A stretch of DNA of 43,427 nt. It comes from Bacteroidales bacterium (GTDB lineage: Bacteria > Bacteroidota > Bacteroidia > Bacteroidales > UBA932). Position 1 is the first letter of the stretch, and each line of letters begins with the position of its first letter. The stretch covers positions 1 through 43,427 of the forward strand of contig JAFVVN010000015.1 of assembly GCA_017502125.1 (NCBI GenBank), read 5' to 3'. The notes beneath the pieces are model-generated. The model did no database searches. It was given only the letters and a program-made list of their open reading frames with translations, and was not told the DNA's origin. The position numbers were made by a program, and so were the translations under genes. This document shows, one piece after another, positions 1 to 39,191 of this stretch.

Positions 1-1239
1 CGTCTTGAGGCCGAGCTCAGGCTGCTTCGTGGAGGGATGTATTTCGAGCTTGCGAAGAGGTATGGGGATGTGATACTTTATGATGAAGACATCACTGCCA
101 TAACCAAGGATAAGGCGCTTTCAAAAGAGGAAGACGTTTGGAATTTCATATACGCAGATCTCAATTATGCTGCAGAGACGCTTCCGGCAAAGGCAGAGGC
201 AAGAGGACGTCTTGACAAGGGAATGGCTTATGCCTATATTACCAGAACCATGCTGTATGCAAAGCGCTGGGATCTTGTGATTTCAGCTGCTGATAAAGTA
301 AAGGAGCTGGGGTACTCTCTTACAGAAAATTATGCTGATTCCTATCAGAAACCTATCAATGCCGGCAATACAGAGGCAATTCTCCAGTATACATTCAGTT
401 ATAGTGACGGCATCACCCATTCTATGGATTCAAGATTCTGTCCTGGCGGAGACCATGCTCTTCTTGGTAACAGCGGAAACGGCGGTATAGGTGTACCTAC
501 CCAGGAGTTTGTGGAGTCATTTGAGCTTGCTGAGGGTGGATTCCCTGATTGGGAACCATGGCATTCGGCAAGTGGTACCACTCAGACCCCTCCATATGCT
601 TACCTTGAACCTCGTTTCCATGCTACTGTCATTTACAACGGTGCAGACTGGAAGGGACGTAAGGTTGAGCCTTATGTAGGTGGAATGGATGGTTGGGCAG
701 CCTGGAGACTGGAGACAAGCCCTTCAGGAAAGACCGTTACAGGTTACTATCTCAGAAAGCTGCTTGATGAGAGCAATGTGGATTTGCGTGGAAGTGATTC
801 TCCTATCACCATCATCAGATATGCTGAGGTGCTTTTGAATAAGGCTGAGGCATGTTATCAGACAAAAGACCTGACTGGTGCGAATGACTGTGTAAAGGCG
901 ATTCGTACCCGAGTAGGACTCCCTTACACTGACAAGGCTGGAAGCGATCTGTGGAATGCGATACGTCAGGAACGTAAGGTGGAACTTGCAATGGAAGGAT
1001 TCTGGTATTGGGATCTTCGCAGGTGGGGAGATGCACATAAGGACTATCCTACCGGACTTTCAAATTATCAGCAGCACGGTCTCAAGATCGAGGTTGATTC
1101 AAATGGCAAGTTTGTTTATAGTTATGTTTCTGTAGACGATAAGAACAGAAATTTCCCTGAAAAGTTATATCGTTTCCCTATGCCGGAGAGTGAATATAAT
1201 ACAAATGACCTCGTCCATCAGTATGATGAGTGGAAATAA
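1..1239 (+). CDS. SusD/RagB outer-membrane glycan-binding lipoprotein, 5' truncated
   Basis: The reading frame is open from base 1, so the N-terminus with its lipoprotein signal lies outside the window; about 412 residues are present. The first residues (RLEAELRLLRGGMYFELAKRYG) fit the SusD TPR-type helix, and the C-terminal half carries IIRYAEVLLNKAEACYQTKD, a hallmark of the family, followed by ERKVELAMEGFWYWDLRRWG. SusD proteins sit on the cell surface as lids over a SusC TonB-dependent channel and bind the glycan. The partner SusC should therefore lie immediately upstream. It is followed at short distance by a DUF5018-type lipoprotein, a NAGPA enzyme and a GHL10-like enzyme, so it is the 5' visible member of an operon running to about 7109. 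The protein is a paralogue of the SusD at 21583, not a copy of it. Confidence 0.95.
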   Translation, partial: RLEAELRLLRGGMYFELAKRYGDVILYDEDITAITKDKALSKEEDVWNFIYADLNYAAETLPAKAEARGRLDKGMAYAYITRTMLYAKRWDLVISAADKVKELGYSLTENYADSYQKPINAGNTEAILQYTFSYSDGITHSMDSRFCPGGDHALLGNSGNGGIGVPTQEFVESFELAEGGFPDWEPWHSASGTTQTPPYAYLEPRFHATVIYNGADWKGRKVEPYVGGMDGWAAWRLETSPSGKTVTGYYLRKLLDESNVDLRGSDSPITIIRYAEVLLNKAEACYQTKDLTGANDCVKAIRTRVGLPYTDKAGSDLWNAIRQERKVELAMEGFWYWDLRRWGDAHKDYPTGLSNYQQHGLKIEVDSNGKFVYSYVSVDDKNRNFPEKLYRFPMPESEYNTNDLVHQYDEWK

Positions 1240-1257
1240 TAATAAATGAGAACTACG

Positions 1258-2943
1258 ATGAAAAGAATATCTATTGTATTTTTATTTGTTCTGGCTGCAT
1301 TTGTCGGATGTCAGAAGCCTCAGTATGTGGAGCCGACTCTCGAAAGACAGGGCATCACCTCTCTGACAGCTTTTTTCACAATGGGCGATTATGAGGGACT
1401 GGAACTGGCTAAGCTTGTGGTGGAAGATCCAGAAGCAGATCGTTTTGTGATAGAGATACCATACTACTATCCAATCACTTCCGACAGCTCTACCAAAAAG
1501 TATATGAGCAGTCTGAGAATCAAGGCACAGCTTGCAAATAACTGCAAGATTGAGCCGCCTCTTACCATCCTCGATCTCAATCTTGAGAATGAATTCACTT
1601 TCACTGATGCACAGGGAAACAGCAGACCTATTATCATCACTGGTAAGAGAGTCAAGTCCTCAGAGTGTAAGGTGATGACATTCAAGTTGACGGAACCATT
1701 CCCGATCGAAGGTTTTGTCAATGAGGATAATAAAGAGATATATCTGTTCACAACTGATGACCTGTCAGGCTATAAGGCAGATGCTACAGTAAGTGCTCAT
1801 GCGACGTTGAAGGATGATCTTACCCAACCAAGGAACTATAATGAGCCTCAGAAGGTGACCGTAATTGCTGATGACGGAACAGAAGGTGTCTATACAGTCT
1901 CGAAAGAGTATCCGACCAAGATTCCTTATGGCTTCAGGGAAAAGTCAGTGACTCCGTTGTTCAATATTGACCCTGTCAAATTGCTGTCGTTCCCGGCTTA
2001 TACTACCACTGTTTACCCTTCTCTTGCGTGCATCGAAGGAAAGCTGATAGTCTCATTTGGTAATGGAATGGCACCGGTGTATGTGGATGCTCTGACAGGT
2101 AGCGGCAAGAAGGAAATGAATGTCGGTGGTGTTAATGTTGCCTGCATAACTAATGATGAGGGAGGTAATTTAATCCTTACTAATCATGCAGAGGCGACTC
2201 AGACAATTGAAATCTATAAGACCAAGTCGGTCAATCAGGCACCTGTGCTCTTCCACTCATTCACTAATGATACTGACCTTGCGACAGGTTATCATGTGAA
2301 GGTGCATGGCAATATTGATACTGATGCTGTCATCGTCTTCACACATGAAGGTGTTGCCGGTGTTACCGAGGCAAGCAAATACACCAAAGTGGTGATTTCC
2401 GGTGGTGCAGTTGTTTCGACTGAAGTGGTGGATCTGCTGAATCTCGGTCTTACATGGGGTACCGCTCCTACAAATACAGCAAAGGTTGTGGCAACTTCCG
2501 CAAAGGCTGATCATGGTGTGATGTTGTGCTACTATTCTGCCAATACCATCAACTATGTGAACGAGTCGGGAACTATTGCAGCATCATTCCCTCTTGCAGA
2601 CCTCGGTGTGGGCATCAATACCAACTATAACACTAACTGTATGGATGCCAAGACCTACAACAATGCAACATATGCTGTTCATCTTACGACGAGTCACTTC
2701 CCTATGTGGGGTGTCGGTCCTATGCTCACGGTGTTTGATATCACTACTCCGACATCCATCTCCAAGGGAATTCCTGTTTTGGCAAACAGTGAAATCGAGT
2801 GGTTCCAGACAGCGGCTCAGGGATGTGCAGCAGCAGATGTCGTCATGGCTCCTTCTGCAGATGGGTTCAAGGTGTTCATCTTCTATTTTGACCACAACTG
2901 CTCAGTTATAGGAGGTTATTCGGCTGACTGTATCAATATCTAA
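1258..2943 (+). CDS. DUF5018-type surface lipoprotein in SusE/F position
   Basis: A 561-residue lipoprotein: MKRISIVFLFVLAAFVGC gives a Cys18 lipobox. I chose the ATG at 1258 rather than 1246 because the signal peptide starts cleanly there. The first ~220 residues look like two Ig-like DUF5018-type units, each ending in the pattern ITVTA-DG-x-YTV (here VTVIADDGTEGVYTV). Residues ~240-561 form a repetitive beta-rich region with short lines such as GKLIVSFGNGMAPVYVDALT and ITNDEGGNLILTN, suggestive of a propeller. The same C-terminal architecture recurs in the lipoproteins at 5478 and 23701. The position just after SusD is where SusE/SusF-type surface glycan-binding proteins sit, so glycan binding is inferred. 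No catalytic motif was seen. Confidence 0.8.
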   Translation: MKRISIVFLFVLAAFVGCQKPQYVEPTLERQGITSLTAFFTMGDYEGLELAKLVVEDPEADRFVIEIPYYYPITSDSSTKKYMSSLRIKAQLANNCKIEPPLTILDLNLENEFTFTDAQGNSRPIIITGKRVKSSECKVMTFKLTEPFPIEGFVNEDNKEIYLFTTDDLSGYKADATVSAHATLKDDLTQPRNYNEPQKVTVIADDGTEGVYTVSKEYPTKIPYGFREKSVTPLFNIDPVKLLSFPAYTTTVYPSLACIEGKLIVSFGNGMAPVYVDALTGSGKKEMNVGGVNVACITNDEGGNLILTNHAEATQTIEIYKTKSVNQAPVLFHSFTNDTDLATGYHVKVHGNIDTDAVIVFTHEGVAGVTEASKYTKVVISGGAVVSTEVVDLLNLGLTWGTAPTNTAKVVATSAKADHGVMLCYYSANTINYVNESGTIAASFPLADLGVGINTNYNTNCMDAKTYNNATYAVHLTTSHFPMWGVGPMLTVFDITTPTSISKGIPVLANSEIEWFQTAAQGCAAADVVMAPSADGFKVFIFYFDHNCSVIGGYSADCINI

Positions 2944-2946: not shown

Positions 2947-3993
2947 ATGAAAAGAATATTCTATATAATAATGACGCTCACCCTTCTTCTGGCTTGTCAG
3001 AAGAAGGGGATGGATGTCCTTGCCGAATGGCCGTGGGAAGAAGAGGAGGAAACACCTGCTACTGATGAGAATGCTCCTTCTGATGCCACGTTGGACAAGT
3101 GGACGGATGTCTCGACTGATTTCGGAGCGCTGCCGGAATATATCAAGGTGTACAGGTCACCTGAGAATCTGGAGGGAAAGAAGGCTGTTGCCTACATAGC
3201 AATAGCTGACATGGTTTCAGCTCAGTGGGATGTATGGAGTATCTCTGACCCTGAGATGGATGGAACTGATGATAAGTTCAAGACCCCACAGGAGGTCTAC
3301 AAAGGAGAAACCTGGCCGATAATAATAAATGCCGGATTCTTTTATGCTTCCGGCGGTAAGAACTATTCTTCAAGTCTTGCAGTAAGAGACTCAGAGGTTC
3401 TTACATATAACATCACCTATGCATCCGAGACTTGGAACGTAGGAGAAATTTATTATCCCACACGTGCAGCCCTGCTTCAGACAGAGTCTGGAGAGTTTGA
3501 TGCATGCTGGACATACGGGAATTGGGATAGCCACTATATGTATCCTTCTCCTGCTGCGAATACATGGGAGGCAAAACCGGTTGAGCAGCCTTCAAAAGAC
3601 TATCCTGAAGGAGCTGAAGAATTTGCTGCCAGGACTGCGATAGGAGGAGGCCCTCTTCTCATCGATGGCGGAAAGTTCAAGGATACTTTTGTGGAGGAAC
3701 TTTTCAACGGTACCTCGGGTATCGGTCCGGACAGCAATCAGCCTCGAACTGCCATTGGTGTGACCTCTGACAAGAAGATGATTCTGTTTGTATGTGAAGG
3801 TCGAGAAATGACTGAAGGAGTCCTCGGCCTGACAACTGCTGATGTGGCGAATGTCCTTCTCGATTTAGGATGCGTTGAGGCCATCAATCTTGATGGTGGT
3901 GGATCGAGCTGCATGTTGGTGTGTGGCAAGGAGACCATAAAAGTTTCAGACGGCACCCAACGTGCTGTGGGCAGTACAATAATGATAAAATAA
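2947..3993 (+). CDS. Phosphodiester glycosidase lipoprotein (NAGPA / DUF2233 domain)
   Basis: A 348-residue lipoprotein (Cys17 in LTLLLAC) with an acidic spacer (WPWEEEEE) after the lipobox. The catalytic domain spans roughly residues 60-348. It has the family signatures INAGFFY, AIGGGPLLIDGG, RTAIGVTSDKKMILFVCEGR and the terminal INLDGGGSSCMLV block. The human member (uncovering enzyme) hydrolyses GlcNAc-alpha-1-phospho-6-mannose, releasing GlcNAc and leaving a phosphomonoester. Bacterial members share the DUF2233 fold, but their substrates are mostly unknown. The gene begins 3 bases after its upstream neighbour stops and ends 5 bases before the GHL10-like gene, so it is co-transcribed with the SusD operon. 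A second family member lies at 17271-18332. The family call is firm; the substrate is not. Confidence 0.92.
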   Translation: MKRIFYIIMTLTLLLACQKKGMDVLAEWPWEEEEETPATDENAPSDATLDKWTDVSTDFGALPEYIKVYRSPENLEGKKAVAYIAIADMVSAQWDVWSISDPEMDGTDDKFKTPQEVYKGETWPIIINAGFFYASGGKNYSSSLAVRDSEVLTYNITYASETWNVGEIYYPTRAALLQTESGEFDACWTYGNWDSHYMYPSPAANTWEAKPVEQPSKDYPEGAEEFAARTAIGGGPLLIDGGKFKDTFVEELFNGTSGIGPDSNQPRTAIGVTSDKKMILFVCEGREMTEGVLGLTTADVANVLLDLGCVEAINLDGGGSSCMLVCGKETIKVSDGTQRAVGSTIMIK

Positions 3994-3998: not shown

Positions 3999-5450
3999 AT
4001 GAAGATACTGAGTAAAATTTTCATTGTCATTTCTCTTCTCTGCATGATTTCATGTGAGAAAGAGAGAACCTATCTGTGGAATTCGGAGTGGGATAAATAC
4101 GATAACCCGGAGGAAAAGCCGGACACTCCTGAAGAACCTGAGGAGCCTGAAAATCCAGGTGACTCCGATCCTGAAGAACCATCTGTTCCGGGAGAACCGG
4201 CAGGAGCCAAGGGACGATTTGTCTGGATCGATGCAGCAGCCAATTTCAAGGACTACGCAAACGATAAGGATAAGATTGCGGAGGATATGGCCAAGATAAA
4301 GGAGACAGGTTTCTCTGCTGTCGTTGTCGATGTGCGCCCGACAAACACAGGAGTGCTTTTCAAATCTTCTACTGAAGGGCCTCTCAAGAGAGTGGATGCA
4401 TGGTTGAAGATGGGATATGCGTGGGTCAACAGAACAGAAGACTTTGACTATCTTCAGGCCTTTATTGATGCAGGCAAGGATGTCGGTCTGGATGTCTATG
4501 CAAGCATCAATACTATGGTTGGTGGATGTCTCTGTCCGTATGGCCTTGGAACTGATGGCGTGTTTTATAACGATCCGGCAAAAAAGGGTTGGGCTACAGT
4601 TGTCAATACAAAGGATGGACTTGTCAACTCGCTTGATCTTGAAGATGCAGGAGCCAAGTTCTTCAATCCGGCAAATGATGAGGTGGTTGATTATATGCTC
4701 AATCTTCTGGCTGACCTTGCTGCTTATGACCTTAAGGGAATAATCCTCGATCGATGCCGCTATGATGATTTCGGCCTCCAGAGCGACTTCTCTGACATAT
4801 CAAGAACGAAGTTCGAGACTCATATTGGAACAAAGGTTCAGAACTGGCCTGGAGATATCTTTGCTCCGGGGCAGTCTTCGCTCAGTGATCCAGCTACGGA
4901 TATGCAGAAGAAATGGCTTGAGTTCCGAGCTAAAGTCATCCATGATTTTGTTGAAAAAGCTGCGGCTAAGGTGCATTCAGTCAATCCTAAGATCAGGTTC
5001 GGAGCCTATGTGGGTGCCTGGTATTCGTCATATTACAGCTCTGGTGTGAACTGGGCGAGTCCTAAGTACGAGACTTCTTTACATTACCCTGAATGGGCGT
5101 CGGAAGACTATAATGAATACGGTTATGCAGACCACTGTGATATCATGATCATAGGAGCATATGCTGGTGTGAAGAGTATTTATGGAAGTACCGAGTGGAC
5201 CATGAGAGGCTTCTGCACCCGAGCTGCAGACCTCTTTGCAGGAGATGTCCCTTACGTCGGCGGACCAGATATAGGAAATGCGACGGGATTCGAGAATGGT
5301 GGTCAGGGTGCATATATGCCTGCTATTGTTGATGTCTGTATTAATGCCTGCACAGAGGGAATGTTCATTTTTGATCTATGCCATATCAAGATGTACAACT
5401 ACTGGAGCGACTTGAAGAAGGGCTTTGACAAATATCTTGAAACATTATAA
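3999..5450 (+). CDS. GHL10-like TIM-barrel glycosidase lipoprotein (DUF187-type), copy 1
   Basis: The start is placed at 3999 because MKILSKIFIVISLLCMISC is a lipoprotein signal (Cys19); longer readings would overlap the previous gene and lose it. A Pro/Glu linker (residues ~35-65) leads to the barrel. Landmarks are GRFVWIDAAANF, FSAVVVDVRPTNTGVLFKSS, FDYLQAFIDAGKDVGLDVYA, FFNPANDEV and LKGIILDRCRYDDFG followed by SDFS, then VNWASP and a C-terminal GMFIFDLCHIKMYNYW. This is the GHL10 (DUF187) layout, with some resemblance to GHL13 (DUF4015). E. coli DigH, a GHL10 lipoprotein, cleaves denuded peptidoglycan glycan. The present subfamily is more distant, so the substrate is open. It has three paralogues at 25200-29175, from which it differs by LDRCRY instead of LDYCR and by a long insertion before the FNP block. 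Confidence 0.85.
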   Translation: MKILSKIFIVISLLCMISCEKERTYLWNSEWDKYDNPEEKPDTPEEPEEPENPGDSDPEEPSVPGEPAGAKGRFVWIDAAANFKDYANDKDKIAEDMAKIKETGFSAVVVDVRPTNTGVLFKSSTEGPLKRVDAWLKMGYAWVNRTEDFDYLQAFIDAGKDVGLDVYASINTMVGGCLCPYGLGTDGVFYNDPAKKGWATVVNTKDGLVNSLDLEDAGAKFFNPANDEVVDYMLNLLADLAAYDLKGIILDRCRYDDFGLQSDFSDISRTKFETHIGTKVQNWPGDIFAPGQSSLSDPATDMQKKWLEFRAKVIHDFVEKAAAKVHSVNPKIRFGAYVGAWYSSYYSSGVNWASPKYETSLHYPEWASEDYNEYGYADHCDIMIIGAYAGVKSIYGSTEWTMRGFCTRAADLFAGDVPYVGGPDIGNATGFENGGQGAYMPAIVDVCINACTEGMFIFDLCHIKMYNYWSDLKKGFDKYLETL

Positions 5451-5477: not shown

Positions 5478-7109
5478 ATGAAAAAAATCGCTTTAATGAT
5501 GCTTGTTGCCGTAGCGGCAATAGCATGTGAAAAGACTCCGGAAATCATTCCTGAGATCAATGTCACAACAACAGAGCTCACAGTTCCTGTAGAAGGAAAT
5601 GAGAGTCTCGTCATCGAGTTCAACTCAAATGTAGATTGGACGGCTAAGGTTAAGGAAGATATCGAGTGGGTTACCATCTCTCCTGCCAAGGGTGTTGCAG
5701 GTGATGCAAAGATTACAGCTGTAGTTGATGCAACAGACCAGACAACAGAGCGTAAGGCTACCATCGAGATCACAGCTGGTGAGAAGATCAATGAAGTAGT
5801 TATTACTCAGGCGGCTCTTCCATTCTTCACAGTTGAGAAGGCCCTTGCTATCCCTACCGAGGGAGGAAATGTTGACTTCGCAGTTTCAACAAACATTCCT
5901 TTCAATGTTACTCTTGAGGAGAACGACTGGCTCACAGTTGCTAAGGGTGAGGGTAAGGTTACATTCACTGCAACAGAGAATACAGCAAATGACGCTCGTA
6001 CAGTGGTAGCTACATTCACAACTGAAGAGGAAGAACTTGGCGGTACTGTGACTGTTACCCAGGATGGTCTTTGCAAGACTCTTTGGGCAGTTAATATGGA
6101 TGAAGTTATGAACCGTCCTGCACAGGCACCTACTTTCTCTACAGATGAGAAGGCTACAGCTGTTTCAATTGCTCTCTATGACGGAAATGTTGTGGTTTGC
6201 GCAGGTGATGGCTCTGCTCCTACTATCCTTGACAAGGCAACAGGAGAGAAGAAGGGTACTATCGCAACAGGTGACTTCAAACCATACACTGTACGTCAGG
6301 ATGATGCAGGAAACCTCGTGATGACCAACCGAGTATGGGCTAAGTGGACTAACATTGCAAACTCATTTGCAATTGCTTACATGGCTCCAGGCGCATCAGC
6401 ACCTGTTACTTTGATTAACACTGGTGATAACGATCCAGATGGTTCGCTTAGAGAGGAGTATCTTGGAGTTTCAATGAATGTAAGAGGTGATGTTACTAAG
6501 GATGCTCTCATCGGTATGCCTCATCAGAATGGTGACTATGCGCACAATGTAATGTCATTCTTCAGTGTTGCTTCAGGCGCTGTTGTTAAGAACAATGTAA
6601 CAATGTCTGGCTTCAAGGGCGTTGGCTGGGCTGGTGGATGCTTCGGTACATGGCCTCATAACATCCCTGGTATCGGTCTTACTGGAGTTACAATGAACGA
6701 TCCTGCTATTGTCTGCGGCTATGAGAGCAATATCCCTCAGGCTCTTGTTCCTGCTACTGGTGTTTGTACAGACCTTTCTACAACTCCGCTTCCAAATGCA
6801 GATTATGCCGGTAACTTTGCGCCTACATCGATTGATGTCCGCAATATCAACAACAAACCATATCTTGCAATCGCGATGACTTCATTCTGGGGCGGTAACG
6901 TATTGGTACTTATCCTTGATGCTACTACTCAGGAACTTCTCTACACTTGGGAGGATGCTCAGATATTCGATGCTAAGGTTGCATCTGATACTAACTATGA
7001 CTATATGTCATGTTCAGTTACTCTCGAAGCTGCTGAAGGTGGAATGGTTGCTTATGTGGCTGACAAAACGACAGGTTCTATTGCAGCTAAGTATTTCAAG
7101 CTTAAATAG
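5478..7109 (+). CDS. BACON-domain surface lipoprotein with propeller-like C-terminus
   Basis: A 543-residue lipoprotein (MKKIALMMLVAVAAIAC, Cys17). Residues ~25-115 and ~116-200 are two BACON-like beta-sandwich units. Typical phrases are VDWTAKVKEDIEWVTISPAKG, ERKATIEITAG and DWLTVAKGEGKVTFTATENT, each ending in VTQ. BACON modules are common in Bacteroidota carbohydrate-active and mucin-related surface proteins and act as spacers or binders. Residues ~210-543 match the architecture of the C-terminal regions at 1258 and 23701 (for example ILDKATGEKKGT and DDAGNLVMTN). It is the last gene of the first operon: a 10-bp stem-loop follows 18 bases after the stop. It contains many frequent-type codons (GCT, ACA, CTT), which could reflect high expression. 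No catalytic signature was found. Confidence 0.85.
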   Translation: MKKIALMMLVAVAAIACEKTPEIIPEINVTTTELTVPVEGNESLVIEFNSNVDWTAKVKEDIEWVTISPAKGVAGDAKITAVVDATDQTTERKATIEITAGEKINEVVITQAALPFFTVEKALAIPTEGGNVDFAVSTNIPFNVTLEENDWLTVAKGEGKVTFTATENTANDARTVVATFTTEEEELGGTVTVTQDGLCKTLWAVNMDEVMNRPAQAPTFSTDEKATAVSIALYDGNVVVCAGDGSAPTILDKATGEKKGTIATGDFKPYTVRQDDAGNLVMTNRVWAKWTNIANSFAIAYMAPGASAPVTLINTGDNDPDGSLREEYLGVSMNVRGDVTKDALIGMPHQNGDYAHNVMSFFSVASGAVVKNNVTMSGFKGVGWAGGCFGTWPHNIPGIGLTGVTMNDPAIVCGYESNIPQALVPATGVCTDLSTTPLPNADYAGNFAPTSIDVRNINNKPYLAIAMTSFWGGNVLVLILDATTQELLYTWEDAQIFDAKVASDTNYDYMSCSVTLEAAEGGMVAYVADKTTGSIAAKYFKLK

Positions 7110-11083: not shown

Positions 11084-11117
11084 AAAATGGCATTGCCGAC
11101 CGGCAATGCCATTTTTT
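11084..11117. terminator. Bidirectional terminator between convergent genes
   Basis: Perfect stem AAAATGGCATTGCC / GGCAATGCCATTTT with a 4-base loop (GACC) and a T-run on the plus strand. It starts 3 bases after the stop of the six-hairpin glycosidase. Its T-run overlaps the stop codon of the minus-strand GDPD gene, so one element serves both directions. Confidence 0.9.
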
Positions 11118-18332: not shown

Positions 18333-18374
18333 GCGTGGCATCTCCATAATATATTTATTTATTAAAACTTTGTG

Positions 18375-31282: not shown

Positions 31283-32374
31283 ATGAAGAATATTATAGTG
31301 TTTCTGACAGTGGCATTTGCCTTAGCAGTTTCCAGCGGATCTGTATCAGCACAGACGGCTGTCTATACGGATGCTTCTGCATTTCCGGTATATGGCAAGG
31401 TCTCGGACCAGACAAATTCGCGTTATGAGCGTCTGCCTTCCGAACTTCAGGGGGTGAGCCGTGACCCGGTGTGGTATCTGGGGCGTAATTCGGCCGGTCT
31501 GTTCATCCGTTTCCGCTCGAACTCCACATCCATATATGCCAGATGGGAGTCCACCTTCAACAACTCAATGACCCACATGACGGACACAGGCACAAAAGGC
31601 CTTGACCTCTATACCCTTGTGGACGGCAAATGGAGACATGTCTGCAGCGCACAGCCTCAGGGCAAGAAGTCAGAGAGGAAGATCATCGGCAATATGGATC
31701 CGGTGGAGCGTGAATATATGCTCTACCTGTCATTGTATGACGGGGTGTCTTCTCTGGAAATCGGCGTGGATGAAGGGGCGACCCTGGATCAGCCTGCGGT
31801 TAACAGCCCATCACGGGAAAAACCTGTCGTGATGTATGGAACCAGCATCCTTCAGGGAGGATGTGCAAACCGTCCCGGCATGGCTCACACAAATATAATC
31901 AGCCGCCGTCTGGACAGGGAAGTCATCAATCTCGGGTTCAGCGGGAGCGCTCTCCTGGATATGGAAATCGCTCATCTGATGGCTGGCGTAGAAGACCCCG
32001 GCCTGTATGTTCTGGACTATGCTCCCAATGCTTATGCAGACATGATCGATGAGAACGGAGAGAAGTTCTTCCGGGTAATCAGGGATGCCCATCCGGATGT
32101 CCCGGTCATCTTCATAGAGGACGTGATATTCCCTCACACCATGTTCGACAATGCGATCCGTGCAGAGGTCCAGGAGAAGAATGCAGCCCAGAAGCGTCTC
32201 TTTGACAGACTGAAGCGGGCTGGTGAGAAGGATATATATTATATTTCAGCCGAAGGCATGATCGGTGACGATGGTGAGGCCACAGTTGACGGAATCCACT
32301 TCACCGACCTTGGCGCCATGCGCTACGTCGACCACGTCCTCCCCACCATCCGCAAAGCCCTGAAGCATAGATGA
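31283..32374 (+). CDS. Secreted SGNH/GDSL hydrolase with N-terminal GxDLY domain
   Basis: 363 residues, type I signal peptide (AVSSGSVSAQ). The N-terminal beta domain (~25-175) contains TGTKGLDLYTLVDGKW, the GxDLY motif (PF14607-like). The catalytic domain is of Lipase_GDSL_3 type. Ser188 is in VVMYGTSILQGGCANRPGMA, block II is INLGFSGSA, and Asp336/His339 are in VDGIHFTD. Such esterases are usually assumed to remove acyl groups (for example acetyl) from sugars. It sits 158 bases after GH97, flanked on both sides by C10 protease remnants, so it may have entered or been rearranged at this site. No clear -7 promoter was found. Confidence 0.88.
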   Translation: MKNIIVFLTVAFALAVSSGSVSAQTAVYTDASAFPVYGKVSDQTNSRYERLPSELQGVSRDPVWYLGRNSAGLFIRFRSNSTSIYARWESTFNNSMTHMTDTGTKGLDLYTLVDGKWRHVCSAQPQGKKSERKIIGNMDPVEREYMLYLSLYDGVSSLEIGVDEGATLDQPAVNSPSREKPVVMYGTSILQGGCANRPGMAHTNIISRRLDREVINLGFSGSALLDMEIAHLMAGVEDPGLYVLDYAPNAYADMIDENGEKFFRVIRDAHPDVPVIFIEDVIFPHTMFDNAIRAEVQEKNAAQKRLFDRLKRAGEKDIYYISAEGMIGDDGEATVDGIHFTDLGAMRYVDHVLPTIRKALKHR

Positions 32375-32631: not shown

Positions 32632-32642
32632 AATACAGAGTT

Positions 32643-33317: not shown

Positions 33318-33339
33318 CTGCCCGTCCAGAGAATTTGCT

Positions 33340-35190
33340 ATGAATAAGTATTTTTTGATAACTGCAACAGCTCTGCTTTGCATGACATCATGCTCAAGGC
33401 CTGAGCATGTGGATGTTCTGGTGATTGGGGGCGGGGCCAGCGGAATAACTGCCGGTGTCCAGTCTGCCAGAATGGGAGTGCCTGCCATGGTGGTTGAGGA
33501 GACCCCTTGGGTGGGCGGTATGCTCACAGCTGCCGGAGTGAGCTGTGTGGACGGTAACTACAAGCTTCAGAGCGGACTCTTCGGTGAGTTCGCGGATTCG
33601 TTGGCTGCGCGATATGGTGGCTGGGATGCCCTCAAGACAGGATGGGTGAGCAATATCAACTTCGAACCGCATGTGGGTCAGGAAATCCTGACGAATATTG
33701 CGGCCTCCTGCGGGGATCTCCTCCAGGTCAGGCGTGAGACAGTCATGGAAAGCGTGAAGAAGGTGGACCAGACATGGAAGGTGGTGCTGAAGCCGCTTCA
33801 TGGCAGAAGATATACGGTCACTGCCGATGTGCTCATTGACGGAACCGAACTCGGAGATGTGGCAAAGGCATGCGGGGTGGAATATAGGATAGGAATGGAA
33901 TCTTCTACTGATACAGGTGAGTCCATAGCACCGGCTGAGGCGAACGACATCATTCAGGACCTCACCTTCGTCACTATTCTGAAGGATTATGGCCAGGGAG
34001 CTGATATGACCATCCCGAAGCCGGAGAACTACGATCCTGCACCTTTCTATAACTGTTCCGTCAATCCTCATAATACCGAGATGGAAACCGGACAGACTCT
34101 CTGGAGCCCTGAGATGATGATAACATATGGACGGACTCCGAACGGTAAATATATGATCAACTGGCCTATCTATGGCAATGACCACTATGTGAATTCCATA
34201 GAAATGAGCCGTGAGGAGAGGATTGAGGCGTATAAGAAGGCCAGGGACTTCACCCTGTCTTTCGTCTATTTTATTCAGACTGAGCTCGGTATGAAGCACC
34301 TTGCACCTGCCGATGATGAGTTCCCGACCGAGGACGGACTCGCCTTGATTCCATATCACAGGGAGTCCAGGCGCATCGTGGGTGAGGCTTTCTTCACCCT
34401 TGATGCTGCTGCAGCGCCATATGATTTCAAGCATCCGTACTACAGGACCGGCATTGCGGTGGGGGACTATGCAGTGGACCATCACCACTTCCGTCATCCT
34501 GAGTGGAAGACCTTGCCTGACCTGCATTTCTATCCGATTCCTTCATTCAATGTGCCTCTGGGAGTCCTCCTGCCGAAACAGCAGGATGTGGAGAATCTGA
34601 TCGTGGCAGAGAAGTCGGTATCAGTGTCCAATCTCATCAACGGGGCCACTCGCCTGCAGCCGGTGGTCATGCAGCTCGGACAGGCTGCCGGAGCACTTGC
34701 CGCCCTCTCGCAGCTTGAAGGACGACCCGTGAAGAAGGTGGGTGTCCGCAAGGTTCAGAAGGCTCTTCTTGATGCAGGCTGCTATCTGATGCCATATCTG
34801 GATCTGCCAAAGGATCATCCTCATTTCAAGGCACTTCAGAAGATAGGCGCGACAGGCATCCTGCGTGGAGAAGGACGCAATGTCGGCTGGGCTAACCAGA
34901 CCTGGTTCCGTGCCGGTGATCCGCTTCTGGCAGAGGAGATATATGCGGGGGACTATTATCGTGGACCGCTTCCGTTCACTGATGGTCCTGTGAAAGTGGG
35001 ACAGTTCATCAATACTCTGCGCGGTCTGGGACTGTACATCCCGGCCGATGCCGGATCAATATGGACCGGTCTCGGCCTGACGGACTTCAATCCTGACCGT
35101 GTGATCACCCGCCTTGAGGCGGCAGTCGTTCTGGATGCCCTCATAGATCCTTTCAGCATGTTCGCTGTCGATTACGAGGGAAATGTATGA
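33340..35190 (+). CDS. FAD-dependent oxidoreductase lipoprotein with SLH-like C-terminus
   Basis: The start at 33340 gives MNKYFLITATALLCMTSC (Cys18); longer readings overlap the previous gene. The mature protein opens with VDVLVIGGGASGITAGVQSA, a Rossmann dinucleotide motif, then VVEETPWVGGMLTAAGVSCV, as in the FAD_oxidored (PF12831-like) group. Further landmarks are DVLIDGTELGDVAKACGVEY and NGATRLQPVVMQLGQAAGAL. The last ~120 residues contain two segments like S-layer-homology repeats: HFKALQKIGATGILRGEG followed by FRAGDPLLAEE, and FNPDRVITRLEAAVVLDAL. A sugar or cyclitol oxidation is possible, but the substrate is unknown. An FAD enzyme exported by the Sec route as a lipoprotein must acquire the cofactor outside the cytoplasm. 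Its stop codon abuts the stop of the minus-strand phosphoesterase. Confidence 0.85.
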   Translation: MNKYFLITATALLCMTSCSRPEHVDVLVIGGGASGITAGVQSARMGVPAMVVEETPWVGGMLTAAGVSCVDGNYKLQSGLFGEFADSLAARYGGWDALKTGWVSNINFEPHVGQEILTNIAASCGDLLQVRRETVMESVKKVDQTWKVVLKPLHGRRYTVTADVLIDGTELGDVAKACGVEYRIGMESSTDTGESIAPAEANDIIQDLTFVTILKDYGQGADMTIPKPENYDPAPFYNCSVNPHNTEMETGQTLWSPEMMITYGRTPNGKYMINWPIYGNDHYVNSIEMSREERIEAYKKARDFTLSFVYFIQTELGMKHLAPADDEFPTEDGLALIPYHRESRRIVGEAFFTLDAAAAPYDFKHPYYRTGIAVGDYAVDHHHFRHPEWKTLPDLHFYPIPSFNVPLGVLLPKQQDVENLIVAEKSVSVSNLINGATRLQPVVMQLGQAAGALAALSQLEGRPVKKVGVRKVQKALLDAGCYLMPYLDLPKDHPHFKALQKIGATGILRGEGRNVGWANQTWFRAGDPLLAEEIYAGDYYRGPLPFTDGPVKVGQFINTLRGLGLYIPADAGSIWTGLGLTDFNPDRVITRLEAAVVLDALIDPFSMFAVDYEGNV

Positions 35191-36615
35191 CTATCTTGTG
35201 ATGGTTTTGGTATAGACCCTTCCGAATCGGTCGGTCACGCGGACCTCGAGAGTCTTTGCGTCAGCTGAATGTTGTGCGCGGAACATATTCTCGGTAGGAG
35301 CGGCATAGACCCATGTCCTTTTGAGGGAAGACGGGTCTTTGTAGCACTCGCGTGCCAAAGGGTCCTGAGCCTTGAAACGCTCCATGTCGCAGACCTTCAC
35401 GCCGTCTTCGAAATATTCCACCTTCCACTGCGGGTCGTAGTCCCATACATTGGCCACGACATAGCCCTGGTGCATAGGGTCGTCCACATAGACCTTCATC
35501 TGGTAGTCCAGAGGATGGCCGCAGCCCTTGTATATCCAGCTGATCTGTTCGCCGTCCATGTCGAAATGCTTGAAGCCGGCAGGTGAACCGTCGATGCAGA
35601 CAGGACCGCACCACCATGCTCCGCACAGACCGGTGATGTTGATTTCCGCAATGTTCTCGCTGATCTGCTCGTAGTCAGCCGTGTGCATATGTCCTGAAAG
35701 GATAAGGGCCTTGTATGGCTCCAGCATCTTGTAGAATGCAGGCTTGTTGCAGAGGTTGTCTCCGATCACGCCGTACTGGAATGCGTCGCGGTCAGACTTG
35801 TCGAGGGTGGTGGGGATATGCATCGACACGACCACGTTAGTCCCCTCCGGTATATACGAAAGGTCCCTCTCAAGCCAGCGGAGCTGCCTCTCATCGATAT
35901 AGCCGATGTAGAAATAGTCGCGTCCCACATAGAAGTTGTTGTTCAGTACGATGTAATGCACCTTTCCGACGTTGAATGAATACCAGCACGGACCATACAT
36001 GTTTTCATAATCCTTCATGGATGTCTCGAACGAGCGTCCCCAGTTGGTCATGTCGTGGTTGCCGATGACATATCTGTAGTCGAAGCCACCCTTGTCCATG
36101 ATCCTGTTGTACTCGGGATATATGCTGTGGTCCCATCCGACAATGTCTCCCAGACAGAGTCCGAAGGTGTAGTCTCCGTCTGCCTGCTTCACATAGTCTG
36201 CAATATCTTCTGAGTACTTCTCAAGTTCCGGAAGCTCGTTCCTCTCGCTGATCTGTGGATCTGCAATGACAATCAGATTGTGGTTCTGATCGTTCTGGGG
36301 ATTCGCTTTCACAACGAAGTCATATTTCTTGATATCTGGGTTTATCTCTTTGTAGAACAGAGTGTTGTCACCTTTGAGCGTTGCTGATGTATATCCTGCA
36401 GGAGTGGATATGAATACGAACCGGCTGTCCTGGTCCGTGTCCATCTTGAATCTTCCTTTGGCATCGGTCACCACAGTGTTGAGTCCGTCAGAAACCACCA
36501 CTCCGGCCACTGCCTTGCCCTCGGTGGTCTTCACAGATCCCTTGATGTTCTCAGCTCTGACGCCGACCCCCGTCAGCATCATCCCAATCATTATATATAC
36601 AATTGCGTTTCTCAT
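35191..36615 (-). CDS. Secreted calcineurin-like phosphoesterase (MetallophosN-Metallophos-MetallophosC)
   Basis: I place the start at 36615 (MRNAIVYIMIGMMLTGVGVR), which restores a signal peptide and puts it 45 bases after the upstream stop. 474 residues. The N-terminal beta domain (~25-110) reads KGSVKTTEGKAVAGVVVSDG and DAKGRFKMDTDQDSRFVFIS. The metallophosphatase core shows IVIADPQIS, LGDIVGWDHS, VIGNHDMTNWG, VVSMHIPTTL and LSGHMHTADYE, which is the full set of metal ligands. The C-terminal beta domain ends with VRVTDRFGRVYTKTITR. Likely a periplasmic phosphomono- or diesterase. It is third in a minus-strand operon after the acyltransferase and the CE2-like esterase. It would suit a pathway in which phosphodiester glycosidases leave phosphomonoesters. 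Confidence 0.9.
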   Translation of the reverse strand: MRNAIVYIMIGMMLTGVGVRAENIKGSVKTTEGKAVAGVVVSDGLNTVVTDAKGRFKMDTDQDSRFVFISTPAGYTSATLKGDNTLFYKEINPDIKKYDFVVKANPQNDQNHNLIVIADPQISERNELPELEKYSEDIADYVKQADGDYTFGLCLGDIVGWDHSIYPEYNRIMDKGGFDYRYVIGNHDMTNWGRSFETSMKDYENMYGPCWYSFNVGKVHYIVLNNNFYVGRDYFYIGYIDERQLRWLERDLSYIPEGTNVVVSMHIPTTLDKSDRDAFQYGVIGDNLCNKPAFYKMLEPYKALILSGHMHTADYEQISENIAEINITGLCGAWWCGPVCIDGSPAGFKHFDMDGEQISWIYKGCGHPLDYQMKVYVDDPMHQGYVVANVWDYDPQWKVEYFEDGVKVCDMERFKAQDPLARECYKDPSSLKRTWVYAAPTENMFRAQHSADAKTLEVRVTDRFGRVYTKTITR

Positions 36616-36659
36616 ATCTTTTTGATTATTATATTGGTGCGGAGGGTTATGAATATACA

Positions 36660-37769
36660 TTATCTATAAATCCTCTCCTCCATCTTCCAGCCGGTAAGCG
36701 TGGAAATGTAAGGTATCATACAACTTGCCACCTTTATATGTCCCTGATAATTAGGATGCCAGCTTGCTCCCAGGTCGTCCTCATAATTGTGGGCGAAGTT
36801 GGACACTGTCATGAATGCAACATTATCCAGTCCGCTTGCCACCACGGCGCTGCGGATATAGTCGTAGAGGTAAGGATTCGCCGGTGAACCCATGCAAAGA
36901 ACAGGTATCTCCTTGCCGTAGTTGGCCTTGATGCTCTTGAGCAGGGTGATGTAGTTGTTCCTGAAGTTCGCCTCATTAGGCTGCTGCCCGGTGGAGAAAT
37001 CATTCGTGCCGAGATAGATTACCACGATGTCTGGAGTGTGGGCTCCCATGCCCGGCTCCCAGATAGGTTCCTTGGCCATATCGAACACCTGCGTGTAGCG
37101 GTCTGGCATATGATATCCCGGACCGAAGTTGTCATAGTTGCGGGCAATTCCCTGACCCGAGTGGCTCACGAGATTGAAATCAGCCCCGAAATAGCGGGCT
37201 GTGATTGCTGCGTATGTGAGGTTGCAGTTCTCAGTCTCGGCAAGGAAAGGGTCGTTCTTGTCGTTGCTCTCTGTGCCGTAACCGCAGGTATATGAGTCAC
37301 CGATGAATTCAATATGCCTTTCCTTTCTGCCGTTTGCCTGAAGGATATCCCCTTCGCTCAGGAAAGAGTGGACCGTGAACTTTCCCTGCTCGCCTTCGGT
37401 CCTCTTCTGGAGAATCACTTCATGTTCTCCTTTGCCGAGTCCTTCCGCCAGCACTATCACAGTGTCCTTCGCTGCCACCATGAACTTTCTGTCTGTCTCT
37501 GGAGCCATCTCCTTGTCCACCCACAGGTTGAACCAGCAGTTCTTTGTGTCTGAGCACTTCATGGCAAGATATGGTCCGTTGAAGCGTACCCTGAAGTATA
37601 CTCCGCTCCAGTCGTATGACACATCCGCTCCATCGACAGCTGTCCTGCCCGTATATTCGATACGGCTGTCTGATGCAGGAGTCTCTTTGAGTGTGACGGC
37701 CTTCCTGGCCGAAATGTCTGCAGCAGAGGCTGCAAGAAGGATTGTGATCAGAATGATGATTCTCTTCAT
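36660..37769 (-). CDS. CE2-like SGNH carbohydrate esterase
   Basis: 369 residues, signal peptide (ITILLAASAADISA). The N-terminal jelly-roll (~25-140) reads IEYTGRTAVDGADVSYDWSG and YFRVRFNGPYLAMK, as in the CE2 N-terminal domain. The SGNH core has HIEFIGDSYTCGYG (Ser158), HSGQGIARN, IYLGTNDFSTGQQ (Asn256) and GASWHPNYQGH (His338). CE2 enzymes remove acetyl groups from sugar hydroxyls. The gene follows the NagX/HGSNAT-like acyltransferase by 21 bases on the minus strand and precedes the phosphoesterase, so acylation chemistry may link the first two genes of this operon. Confidence 0.9.
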   Translation of the reverse strand: MKRIIILITILLAASAADISARKAVTLKETPASDSRIEYTGRTAVDGADVSYDWSGVYFRVRFNGPYLAMKCSDTKNCWFNLWVDKEMAPETDRKFMVAAKDTVIVLAEGLGKGEHEVILQKRTEGEQGKFTVHSFLSEGDILQANGRKERHIEFIGDSYTCGYGTESNDKNDPFLAETENCNLTYAAITARYFGADFNLVSHSGQGIARNYDNFGPGYHMPDRYTQVFDMAKEPIWEPGMGAHTPDIVVIYLGTNDFSTGQQPNEANFRNNYITLLKSIKANYGKEIPVLCMGSPANPYLYDYIRSAVVASGLDNVAFMTVSNFAHNYEDDLGASWHPNYQGHIKVASCMIPYISTLTGWKMEERIYR

Positions 37770-37790
37770 ATCAATAATATTTGTTTTTCT

Positions 37791-39191
37791 TTAACTTCTC
37801 CAGAATAGTCTGAGTCTGGTGAATGCATATGTGACACACATCATGATGAAGGTTATGATGATGCCCTGGGCTACACCCCAGAACTGCGAACCGGCTGCCA
37901 GTCCATATAGTGCCGGGAGGATTCCGAGCAGGGCGAGGACCGGACCGGTTAGGAAATTGGTCACGGTGTACGCCAGCATAGGATTCTGGCCCACACCTGC
38001 CAGGAACTTCCCTTTGACAGAGAACCTGAACTCAAGCATGAGGAGGAAGGCGGCTGTCAGGGCTGCCATTCCCGAAGTGGTGAACACATATGAGAGGTTA
38101 CAGTGGTCCTTGGTTATGCCGCCGTCCACAGGGTCGAAGGCTATTCCCACAAGCAAGAGTGTGAATCCTATGATCGCGGTCCTTGTGAAGACATTCTTCT
38201 GCTTCCATGTCAGACCGATGAATGCGGCTGCCAGTGCTGCCGATATGATGAAGTCGGCAGTCACATTGCGGGTGAAAAGTCCCCAGAGCTGCACGCAGGC
38301 GGCTGCAAATGCCAGAAATCCTGCTGTGATGCTTCTGTTGTCGAAGTTCAGTCCCTCTCCGCTGCGGGAATGTGCCAGGATTATGTCTCCGACAATGGAT
38401 CCCGGAATGGCGATGAGCAGATACTGTAGCCATTTCCATGAGAACAGCCAGCTCAGACTGCCGGTCGAGGGCACGAATGAAAGGACTTCCGGCGCATATG
38501 AATCAAGGGCCTTGATGGCTGCGACAAAGAGGAAGACCAGCCATCTGAGTCTGAGGCTGTCCTTTGTGAACATCCAGATGAGGCCACCCCAGATCGCTAT
38601 GTTTGCAAGAATCATTATTATGATGTCGCTGCTGTATCTGTTAAGCGGTATCCCGAACCACTTGACCAGCACGAAGCCCAGCATGACCATCATCGCCGCC
38701 CCGCAAAGGTTTATGGCAGTCCCCAGATGCTTCTTCCATCCCTCGGCTTCCTTGATGTTGACTCTGACGAAGGTCATGAACATTGCCGTCCACAGGGAGA
38801 TGTTGAACAGGTATATGTTCCATGATGGTCTCGAACTGCCTCCTATCGCATAGGCGTTGCCCAGAATGAGACCGAAAGCAGTGAGGATGAACCATCTCTT
38901 GATGAGGCTTCCTGCCACCTTCCACCTGCTCATTCCTCCCTCCAGCCGTTTTCTCATTGCCAGCGGAAAGGCCGCTCCCATCGAGAAGAGGAAGAAAGGA
39001 AACACAAGGTCAACCCATGTGATTCCCGGCACGTCCGGGTTGAATGCATATGTCGGAGGAGGGGTCTGGGCATGGAACATCCATGCAGGAAGATCGGAGT
39101 TGAATCCGATGTTTGCACACAGGATCATGCCTACGATGGCTATACCCCTGAGCATGTCGATTGTCGCGATGCGTTTGGTCTTGGTTGTCAT
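37791..39191 (-). CDS. HGSNAT/NagX-like membrane acyltransferase (DUF5009-type)
   Basis: 466 residues from the start at 39191 (MTTKTKRIATIDMLRGIAIV); a longer reading from 39218 would begin inside the likely -7 box. A polytopic membrane protein with about 11-12 hydrophobic segments. N-terminal signature is IDMLRGIAIVGMILCANIGF, then GITWVDLVFPFFLFSMGAAF and RKRLEGG, then a late FTTSGMAALTAAFLLMLEFR and NPMLAYTVTNFLTGP. This matches the family of human heparan-alpha-glucosaminide N-acetyltransferase and bacterial NagX, which move acetyl groups from cytoplasmic acetyl-CoA across a membrane onto glucosamine-type sugars. The family is often linked to GlcNAc use in bacteria. First gene of the minus-strand operon with CE2-like esterase and phosphoesterase. 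Confidence 0.88.
   Translation of the reverse strand: MTTKTKRIATIDMLRGIAIVGMILCANIGFNSDLPAWMFHAQTPPPTYAFNPDVPGITWVDLVFPFFLFSMGAAFPLAMRKRLEGGMSRWKVAGSLIKRWFILTAFGLILGNAYAIGGSSRPSWNIYLFNISLWTAMFMTFVRVNIKEAEGWKKHLGTAINLCGAAMMVMLGFVLVKWFGIPLNRYSSDIIIMILANIAIWGGLIWMFTKDSLRLRWLVFLFVAAIKALDSYAPEVLSFVPSTGSLSWLFSWKWLQYLLIAIPGSIVGDIILAHSRSGEGLNFDNRSITAGFLAFAAACVQLWGLFTRNVTADFIISAALAAAFIGLTWKQKNVFTRTAIIGFTLLLVGIAFDPVDGGITKDHCNLSYVFTTSGMAALTAAFLLMLEFRFSVKGKFLAGVGQNPMLAYTVTNFLTGPVLALLGILPALYGLAAGSQFWGVAQGIIITFIMMCVTYAFTRLRLFWRS

Follow-up and report, generated by a model that had tools for sequence, protein, structure and literature searches.

A composite Sus-type locus in an uncultured gut Bacteroidales bacterium, possibly directed at an amino-sugar-rich wall polymer

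An uncultured gut Bacteroidales bacterium (UBA932) carries a large gene set for the utilization of a sugar polymer, which raises the question of which polymer it serves. The genes lie in a window of 43,427 nt (assembly GCA_017502125.1, contig JAFVVN010000015.1, forward strand), by which we mean the whole stretch of DNA that was analyzed. The target seems to be a polymer with abundant N-acetylated amino sugars and with phosphate links, perhaps one from the walls of other bacteria.

Architecture of the locus

The features of the window are as follows.

1..1239, plus strand: SusD1 (PF07980 E 6e-55), which starts on contig C8, downstream of SusC1
1246..2943, plus strand: DUF5018 lipoprotein (PF16410 E 3.3e-86), likely surface glycan-binding from its position after SusD
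2947..3993, plus strand: NAGPA1, phosphodiester glycosidase-like lipoprotein (PF09992 E 1.5e-26), motifs kept
3999..5450, plus strand: GHL10a with DUF4985 (PF02638 E 2.1e-9, PF16373 E 2.5e-29), marker of the outer locus
5478..7109, plus strand: lipoprotein with two BACON domains and a weak DUF5018 match (E 1.4e-8, below cut-off)
7245..8408, plus strand: GlcNAc 2-epimerase, AGE (PF07221 E 3.8e-76), no signal peptide seen
8925..11081, plus strand: Bac_rhamnosid6H/MGH1-like six-hairpin (6H) glycosidase (PF17389 E 3.8e-11)
11116..12999, minus strand: LamG and GDPD lipoprotein (PF03009 E 6.9e-28; 3no3 E 1.7e-59)
13002..14999, minus strand: GH97a (PF10566 E 1.8e-89), presumably of inverting alpha-glucosidase type by its motif
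15073..17235, plus strand: GH89 alpha-N-acetylglucosaminidase (PF05089 E 9e-140)
17271..18377, minus strand: NAGPA2 (PF09992 E 2.4e-28)
18442..21570, plus strand: SusC2, Plug and CarbopepD_reg_2 domains
21583..23277, plus strand: SusD2 (PF07980 E 1.3e-49)
23287..23673, plus strand: small DUF5018-like lipoprotein (E 4.4e-5, below cut-off), which in relatives matches separately from the gene that follows
23701..25119, plus strand: DUF5018 lipoprotein (PF16410 E 1.1e-20), likely glycan-binding
25200..26453, plus strand: GHL10b with DUF4985 (PF02638 E 2.2e-15)
26466..27842, plus strand: GHL10c with DUF4985 (PF02638 E 1.2e-26)
27844..29175, plus strand: GHL10d with DUF4985 (PF02638 E 2.8e-27; Cwp19 E 6.9e-11)
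29181..31124, plus strand: GH97b, retaining alpha-galactosidase type (3a24 E 7e-159; GH97 model E 4.2e-100)
31283..32374, plus strand: GxDLY and SGNH esterase (PF14606 E 5.6e-61)
33340..35190, plus strand: FAD-dependent oxidoreductase (PF12831 E 1.8e-84, on the longer frame 33238-35190)
35191..36615, minus strand: calcineurin-like phosphoesterase (PF16371 and PF16370, on a longer frame to 36660)
36660..37769, minus strand: CE2-type esterase (PF17996 E 3.1e-19)
37791..39218, minus strand: DUF5009 membrane protein, HGSNAT/NagX-like (PF16401 E 2.1e-51)

The locus extends leftwards onto C8, whose end overlaps the window start exactly over 141 bp. C8 contributes SusC1, a DUF4434 protein, a ROK regulator, a sugar porter and one more GHL10 protein, the fifth. 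Adjacent SusC and SusD genes, as in Sus-type polysaccharide utilization loci, are thus found twice: SusC2–SusD2 in the window, and SusC1–SusD1 at the C8 end. An earlier sequence-only reading had placed two SusC/D systems in the window, and both pairs do exist, but the first SusC lies on C8 and the first SusD is truncated by the window start. Pfam searches of the window bear out the enzyme families named in that reading (two NAGPA proteins, LamG-GDPD, calcineurin-like phosphoesterase, GH89, two GH97, AGE and DUF5009) as well as its four GHL10-like enzymes, all of which carry DUF4985; in agreement with it, these searches matched neither a peptidoglycan amidase nor a muramidase family. The window also holds families that it had passed over: the CE2 esterase, the GxDLY/SGNH esterase, the FAD-dependent oxidoreductase, the Bac_rhamnosid6H-like protein and four proteins resembling DUF5018, of which two score under the Pfam threshold and one has BACON domains.

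Taken together, the genes form a composite: a second module (8.9–31.1 kb; GDPD, GH89, NAGPA2, the GH97s and SusC2/D2) is set into an outer locus that runs SusC1/D1–DUF5018–NAGPA1–GHL10a–AGE and resumes with FAD oxidoreductase–phosphoesterase–CE2–DUF5009, and that has relatives in other gut Bacteroidales. NCBIfam gave no match for either NAGPA, GHL10a, the 6H protein or the DUF5009 protein. In the PDB, the 6H protein has no solved relative at E 0.01, and the FAD oxidoreductase finds only generic flavoproteins. The possibility that the DUF5018 region at 23287-25119 is one frameshifted gene was rejected, as its two parts match separate stretches in L056 and L214–L216 (L213 matched only the first part).

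Recurrence of the outer locus and its epimerase

The outer gene order is found in the relatives L058–L066, L068, L048 and L050, and also in a human faecal stretch, L152. Clustering of NAGPA, GHL10 and AGE genes exceeds chance: within about 20 kb around 24 window-type NAGPA loci outside the window, GHL10 is present in 19 and AGE in 14, as compared with 2 and 3 of 40 control SusD loci from the same family of genomes (chosen by stepping down a list, not at random, with several cut by contig ends, L192 at 3 kb). Two controls, L164 and L166, are themselves the outer locus without NAGPA, and are the source of two control matches each for GHL10, CE2, DUF5018, DUF4434 and the FAD oxidoreductase. SusC is rarer in the cases (17/24) than in the controls (39/40), the latter having been chosen by SusD.

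The cases comprise 13 of the 20 loci in a first set and 11 of the 80 in a second. Left out of the first set were L044 and L045, which share contigs with L058 and L064, and L053–L057, whose NAGPA is partial or divergent; L056 has a GHL10 gene and L057 an AGE gene, and counting L053–L057 gives 20/29 for GHL10 and 15/29 for AGE. From the second set, 7 loci (Pedobacter, Sphingobacterium and kin) were counted apart. In most of the remaining 62, NAGPA is the only window gene, and a few match SusC, SusD, GHL10, DUF5009, the phosphoesterase or DUF5018. Other NAGPA genes of the family were rejected as the same system on 30 listed stretches, which at 2.3–3.6 kb are too short for more; apart from NAGPA they show fragments of SusD (in L016) and of SusC (in L029) and no other window gene.

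The most constant partner of GHL10a is the epimerase. GHL10a (E 1e-100 or better) occurs in 21 of 149 genomes, and all 21 carry an AGE-family gene, compared with 31 of the 149 overall (hypergeometric 2e-18, with the kinship of the genomes ignored). In 18 of the 21 the AGE is at 62% identity or more, and in 16 it lies within 20 kb; G001, G002 and G107 have a relative at 34–38% identity only, whose sugar is uncertain. By sequence, the window AGE groups with GlcNAc 2-epimerases: its best solved match is 6f04 (E 1.7e-156), with 1fp3 at E 7.8e-83, and cellobiose 2-epimerase activity was rejected because the best such enzyme reaches only E 3.2e-21. Additionally, the best-scoring model for a relative's ROK gene, which is 63% identical to the C8 one, is NagC, with a score under the threshold, and GH20 is present in some relatives. 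These observations support the amino-sugar-rich substrate that had been proposed.

Sialic acid is another possible source of ManNAc. The sialidase family PF13088 has no match in 17 of the 21 GHL10a genomes and is present in four, one of which is the bacterium's own genome (two matches over cut-off, best E 1.3e-12). The NanA model TIGR00683 exceeds its cut-off in 0/21 genomes and in 1/14 controls, a strictness at which a Bacteroides-type lyase could be missed; weaker matches occur in 14/21, the best in G002 (E 4.1e-52), 5-6 kb from that genome's PF13088 match. A part for the epimerase in sialic-acid use is unlikely on the sialidase result, the NanA check being weak. Since most of these genomes are without a sialidase match, the ManNAc handled by the epimerase probably comes from the polymer that the locus itself targets, and this would suit Gram-positive wall glycopolymers better than mucin.

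A host mucin locus, in which GH89 would uncap the alpha-GlcNAc of gastric-type mucin, the other enzymes would trim O-glycans and NAGPA would act on another alpha-GlcNAc link, we consider quite improbable. GH89 and the GH97b alpha-galactosidase in the window and GH20 in relatives would suit such a target, and four of the 11 closest named relatives are labelled with a ruminant gut site, where host glycans are at hand. However, Pfam matched no sulfatase, fucosidase or sialidase family in the window, most GHL10a genomes lack PF13088, the constant partner belongs to a GlcNAc/ManNAc-type epimerase family, and GH89 lies outside the recurring outer locus.

GHL10, phosphodiester and middle-module enzymes

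The GHL10 proteins match PF02638 with E 2.1e-9 to 2.8e-27 and resemble Cwp19 and DigH in this domain, Cwp19 being the strongest of three solved proteins found (E 1.5e-14). They differ from these in carrying a C-terminal DUF4985 domain and in one key residue. While the equivalent of Cwp19 Asp195 is kept in 22/22 GHL10 proteins, that of Asp196, the residue proposed as catalytic in Cwp19, is replaced in every one, by R in 18 and by Y in 4. This loss weakens the earlier proposal that the GHL10 enzymes are DigH-like peptidoglycan cutters.

NAGPA1 and NAGPA2 are predicted phosphodiester glycosidases by family domain and motifs. They can be aligned to human NAGPA (the uncovering enzyme) and to the DUF2233 protein 3ohg, which we take to be from B. 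ovatus, and the N(G/A)G(F/Y), PR(T/S), GR, NLDGGGS and SD...R motifs are conserved in 13/13 aligned proteins, although overall identity to the two is low and the N-terminal half aligns weakly. Among phage records with a NAGPA domain, 42/57 are named for phages of Gram-positive hosts, a count with no base rate to compare. The phosphoesterase is of MetallophosN/C type (E 4.2e-22 and 1.8e-39) with metal-binding motifs visible by eye; the central Metallophos model of Pfam found no match in it, its SpdA match is weak (E 2.5e-6), and no solved relative was found in the PDB. It shares a calcineurin-like fold with PhoD/ShfP of Bacillus, but differs from them in its MetallophosN/C type and lack of a solved relative. 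In PMC11488536, the PhoD/ShfP family is reported to include fusions of calcineurin-like phosphoesterases to NAGPA, and lipoteichoic acid is discussed as a likely substrate of one family member.

Phosphodiester chemistry is not the constant feature of the locus, since NAGPA lies within 20 kb of GHL10a in only 12 of the 21 genomes (it was not found near in eight, and the ninth ends at a contig end), and the phosphoesterase gene also occurs in loci where NAGPA is absent (L217, L218, L220–L222). This bears on the idea that the target is not a wall polymer but some other phosphodiester-linked product of other bacteria, be it a capsule, an exopolysaccharide or a polymer of enterobacterial type, such as chains of GlcNAc-1-P or ManNAc-1-P. 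From family chemistry, NAGPA, AGE and the phosphoesterase would suffice for such a polymer, and 5/57 phage records with NAGPA are named for Escherichia or Erwinia. Yet the GDPD, the GHL10 set and the removal of alpha-Glc and alpha-Gal would not be needed, and NAGPA lies near GHL10a in only those 12 of 21 genomes; we regard this target as unlikely.

In the middle module, the GDPD shows HRG and NHD motifs by eye, which we take to be functional, and its closest solved relative, 3no3, is not shown to be a teichoicase. GH97b is closest to 3a24 and keeps the Asp that aligns to the residue changed in 5e1q, as in a retaining alpha-galactosidase; the alpha-glucosidase type of GH97a comes from a motif that we assume to be diagnostic. 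The module is rarely seen with NAGPA elsewhere. GDPD, GH89, GH97 and 6H genes lie near other window-type NAGPA genes in 1, 1, 0 and 0 of 24 loci, and neither NAGPA nor GDPD was found near GH89 in 21 other GH89 stretches (picked from 46 listed matches, none longer than 20 kb and some truncated where the contig stops), so that GH89 was rejected as a marker of a phosphoglycan system. Near these other GH89 genes we observed an SGNH esterase (L199), a phosphoesterase (L212) and weak matches to GHL10 (L195), GH20 (L208) and ROK (L207). Among the loci examined, GH89, GDPD and NAGPA occur together in one other genome, in L051, which also carries AGE and GH20.

The earlier view of GDPD, GH89, the GH97s and NAGPA as one system is weakened by these counts and by the placing of GDPD, GH89 and the GH97s in a separate middle module. 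It is quite possible, if short of an even chance, that two neighboring loci have different targets, one the outer GHL10/AGE/oxidoreductase locus and the other the inserted GH89/GDPD/GH97 set, in which case the combined list says nothing on one polymer. The outer genes lie together without the middle block in L058, L059 and L060, and the sparse company of the middle enzymes points the same way. Against this, SusC2/D2-type relatives also carry AGE (L214, L215), DUF4434 (L216, L056), SGNH esterase (L213, L215), DUF5009 (L213) and GHL10, L213–L216 and L223 have toolkit genes common to both modules, and L051 combines NAGPA, GH89, GDPD and AGE in one locus.

The DUF5009 protein had been read as an HGSNAT/NagX-like acyltransferase. 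The DUF5009 match is clear, but the protein itself does not match HGSNAT_cat at E 0.001; only the relative L064 does. Together with GH89, it mirrors the lysosomal HGSNAT–NAGLU pair, from which it differs in the missing HGSNAT_cat match and in a window with no heparan lyase or sulfatase match. It is very improbable that the target is a eukaryotic phosphoglycan or GPI-like glycan (fungal or protozoal), on which DUF5009 and GH89 would act at alpha-glucosamine and GDPD and NAGPA at phosphodiesters. The likeness to the lysosomal pair and the protozoa and fungi that ruminant-gut relatives would meet speak for it, but Pfam matched no alpha-mannosidase family (GH92, GH76, GH38) in the window and AGE would be left unexplained.

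A candidate polymer and its significance

Our tentative best explanation, held at somewhat less than even confidence, is a composite Sus-type locus whose polymer would release ManNAc and GlcNAc and contain some sugar-1-phosphodiester links. The likeliest candidate is a wall glycopolymer of Gram-positive type, either the linkage region of teichoic acid or a secondary wall polysaccharide akin to it. The possibility of two loci may hold together with this explanation for the outer part. Of the original wall-polymer proposal, the amino-sugar substrate and the NAGPA motifs stand, whereas the patchy occurrence of NAGPA, the separate middle module and the loss of Asp196 count against it. On sequence evidence, we describe an amino-sugar locus in which phosphodiester chemistry is optional, with teichoic acid a possible target.

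Ordered as a whole by homology, DUF5018/BACON lipoproteins and SusD would bind the polymer and surface GHL10 lipoproteins would cleave its chain. NAGPA1 and NAGPA2 would hydrolyze GlcNAc-alpha-1-phosphodiesters to give a phosphomonoester for the calcineurin-like phosphoesterase, LamG-GDPD would clip glycerophosphodiesters, and the CE2 and SGNH esterases would remove acyl groups. With import through SusC1 and SusC2, GH89, GH97a and GH97b would remove alpha-GlcNAc, alpha-Glc and alpha-Gal, respectively, and the DUF5009 protein may add acetyl groups back to glucosaminyl ends. The C8 sugar porter would carry the amino sugar to the cytoplasm, where AGE would convert ManNAc to GlcNAc under the NagC-like regulator. 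The stronger version, a dedicated gut Bacteroidota system dismantling wall glycopolymers of Gram-positive neighbors, is rather unlikely; in it, NAGPA and the phosphoesterase would sever the polymer at its GlcNAc-1-P anchor, the chain would be degraded by GDPD and the glycosidases, and the epimerase would recover ManNAc from the ManNAc–GlcNAc linkage unit.

Where Gram-positive bacteria live at high density, teichoic acids and similar wall polymers offer a plentiful supply of carbon and phosphorus. The locus resembles Sus-type loci of Bacteroidota in grouping SusC/SusD pairs with lipoprotein binding proteins and secreted glycosidases, and it differs from those described in the literature matches listed by its set of NAGPA, GHL10-DUF4985, AGE, FAD oxidoreductase, DUF4434 and phosphoesterase. 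Those matches contain no description of such a locus, nor of a Bacteroidota locus that consumes teichoic acids or related wall polymers. The recurring GHL10a–epimerase pair with optional NAGPA provides a concrete gene set and purified-protein targets for a wall-polymer test, and offers a way to assign GHL10-DUF4985, DUF4434, DUF4855 and DUF5018 proteins their first function. If the wall-polymer explanation is true, one member of the gut community would feed on the walls of another.

Organization of the locus and its relatives

Pfam scans of 28 reading frames confirm every family that the sequence-only reading had named. They also detect esterases of the CE2 and GxDLY/SGNH types, an FAD-dependent oxidoreductase, a glycosidase-like protein of the six-hairpin kind, and DUF5018/BACON proteins. 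By eye, lipoprotein-type N-termini are present on both NAGPAs, the GHL10s, the GDPD protein, GH89, and the DUF5018 proteins (a simple pattern marked only part of these), and there is none on the epimerase (AGE). The window is an entire contig of a 2.34-Mb genome (78% complete, 85 contigs), and its first 141 bp are an exact copy of the end of a neighboring contig, C8, the pattern of two joined contigs in one assembly. One strand of C8 encodes a ROK regulator, a sugar porter, and a DUF4434 protein; the opposite strand has a GHL10 (the fifth of the locus), SusC1, and the start of SusD1. The join is supported because three related loci (L058, L060, and L062) keep DUF4434, GHL10, SusC, and SusD in this same order; the locus extends past the window, onto C8. 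The C8 ROK gene is 63% identical to its relative in another locus, L147, on which the regulator match was measured: the best model is NagC, under that model's cut-off.

Judged by gene order in its relatives, the locus is built of two modules. SusC1, SusD1, DUF5018, NAGPA1, GHL10a, and a BACON/DUF5018 protein stand in succession in L058 and L060, followed in L058 by AGE, DUF5009, CE2, phosphoesterase, and FAD oxidoreductase, and in L060 by SGNH esterase, FAD oxidoreductase, and AGE; L059, a stretch whose start is cut inside DUF5018, then matches the L058 order. NAGPA1 is 54–56% identical and AGE 86–93% identical in these three loci, and the block filling 8.9–31.1 kb of the window is absent from all of them. 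From this middle block, SusC2, SusD2, the small DUF5018, and GHL10 recur in five other loci (L056, L213–L216), and the second DUF5018 gene accompanies them everywhere except in L213. L213 also has GH97b, SGNH esterase, and DUF5009; AGE occurs in L214 and L215, and DUF4434 in L216 and L056. In one other genome, which belongs to the same genus (L051, L138), the GDPD and GH89 of the block are accompanied by NAGPA, AGE, GH20, and GH3.

The six-hairpin protein (8925–11081, Bac_rhamnosid6H/MGH1-like) is present in 0/24 related loci and 1/40 controls, and no solved relative of it was found. The G+C content is 0.49–0.535 across 30001–42000 (the end of GH97b, SGNH esterase, oxidoreductase, phosphoesterase, CE2, DUF5009, lipocalin, and part of FeoAB) versus 0.45–0.49 across 1–30000. 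DUF4855, which is repeatedly near NAGPA or AGE (L051 5612–7558, L067 7833–9590, and L152) and forms a fusion with GDPD in L051, is a candidate glycosidase-like family linked to this system.

Co-occurrence with GHL10 and NAGPA

Gene families in 24 window-type NAGPA loci (chosen by NAGPA) versus 40 SusD loci; raw counts, kinship ignored.
GHL10: 19/24 vs 2/40
DUF5018: 19/24 vs 2/40
AGE: 14/24 vs 3/40
Sugar porter: 12/24 vs 1/40
FAD oxidoreductase: 10/24 vs 2/40
DUF4434: 10/24 vs 2/40
Phosphoesterase: 6/24 vs 3/40
CE2: 5/24 vs 2/40
ROK: 5/24 vs 3/40
GH20: 4/24 vs 1/40
DUF5009: 3/24 vs 0/40
SGNH esterase: 2/24 vs 0/40
GH89: 1/24 vs 2/40
GDPD: 1/24 vs 0/40
GH97: 0/24 vs 3/40
Six-hairpin protein: 0/24 vs 1/40

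Seven loci of Pedobacter, Sphingobacterium, and kin, tallied separately, contain FAD oxidoreductase in 7/7, GHL10 in 3/7, and AGE in 0/7. This oxidoreductase (window 33340–35190; L145, L164, L166, L085, and L095) often accompanies GHL10/NAGPA, Sphingobacterium and Pedobacter included. In L145 it forms a fusion with GHL10-DUF4985, and L164 and L166 have reading frames of similar length. Glycan breakdown may include an oxidative step.

Of 149 genomes of the same family, 21, the own genome among them, have a relative of GHL10a (E 1e-100 or better), and 31 have one of AGE (E 1e-40 or better). The phosphodiester chemistry proposed by the sequence-only reading is supported as an optional part of the system: NAGPA lies within 20 kb of GHL10a in 12 of the 21 genomes, the available stretch around GHL10a lacks it in 8, and 1 is cut by a contig end. 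GH89 and GDPD are each found in one of the 24 NAGPA loci; elsewhere GH89 sits in other contexts, with neither NAGPA nor GDPD nearby (0/21 stretches).

The proposed amino-sugar polymer is supported: AGE is present in all 21 GHL10a genomes, and the window's copy clusters with GlcNAc 2-epimerases (E 1.7e-156), distant from cellobiose epimerases. AGE is 62–100% identical to the window's in 18 of these genomes and 34–38% in G001, G002, and G107; it lies within 20 kb of GHL10a in 16, while the other 5 carry it on a separate contig. Use of ManNAc requires this epimerase, while use of free GlcNAc does not, and the usual source of ManNAc is sialic acid. Because a sialidase-family (PF13088) match is absent from 17/21 GHL10a genomes, it is more likely that ManNAc comes from the polymer handled by this locus. 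The model for sialic-acid lyase, NanA, is strict, with its cut-off passed by 0/21 GHL10a genomes and only 1/14 controls; weaker matches occur in 14/21, the best in G002, near a sialidase. A sialic-acid role may nonetheless hold for AGE in the window's species, since its genome has two PF13088 matches above cut-off (best E 1.3e-12).

Active sites and candidate polymers

Part of the earlier argument was that DigH cuts denuded peptidoglycan (PMC12288456). The window's GHL10 profile has three solved relatives, and its strongest match among them is Cwp19, described in PMC6016235 as a peptidoglycan lytic transglycosylase. Asp196, indicated as important in the Cwp19 structure report (PMC5765458), is replaced in all 22 aligned GHL10 proteins (18 have R and 4 have Y), while an adjoining Asp and an Arg are invariant. 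The GHL10 active site thus seems to be built differently, and cutting of denuded peptidoglycan should not be assumed.

All 13 aligned NAGPA proteins retain the motifs common to the human enzyme and 3ohg; the one change is a T to S in PRT. NAGPA has been described in Bacillota proteins, some of which also bear a peptidase domain directed at peptidoglycan (PMC12419801), and in predicted depolymerases of prophages (PMC9862828). It is also reported fused to calcineurin-like phosphoesterases that belong to the ShfP family; for one member the authors consider lipoteichoic acid the likely substrate (PMC11488536). The domain is also found in 57 phage records (a raw tally with no base rate), named for Bacillus (37), Staphylococcus (4), Kurthia (1), Escherichia (3), and Erwinia (2), or as 'Bacteriophage' with no host name (10).

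A second NAGPA site in the own genome (L006, contig C83, 976–6959) has the order BACON-NAGPA, a purple-acid-phosphatase-like gene, an AP_endonuc_2-NAGPA fusion, and a GlpT/PgtP-like organophosphate transporter (assigned below model cut-offs). A transporter 64–66% identical likewise follows NAGPA in G084 (L054, L141), and this arrangement suggests that NAGPA at such sites releases an importable phosphate ester.

Candidates that contain ManNAc are the wall teichoic acid linkage unit, ManNAc-containing secondary wall polysaccharides, and some capsules; ManNAc is named in secondary wall polymers in PMC6030368 and PMC11464976. Teichoic acid fits as one among several polymers. No such locus is described among the matches listed, of a much larger set, in mainly open-access literature.

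The best NAGPA match among the phage records, MT836730.1 (L152), is a bacterial-looking human-faecal record labeled Bacteriophage sp., and its DNA is most likely bacterial rather than phage. It carries DUF5018, NAGPA, GHL10, phosphoesterase, GHL10, DUF5009, SGNH esterase, GH20, and a DUF4855-like gene, so the gene set occurs in the human gut too.
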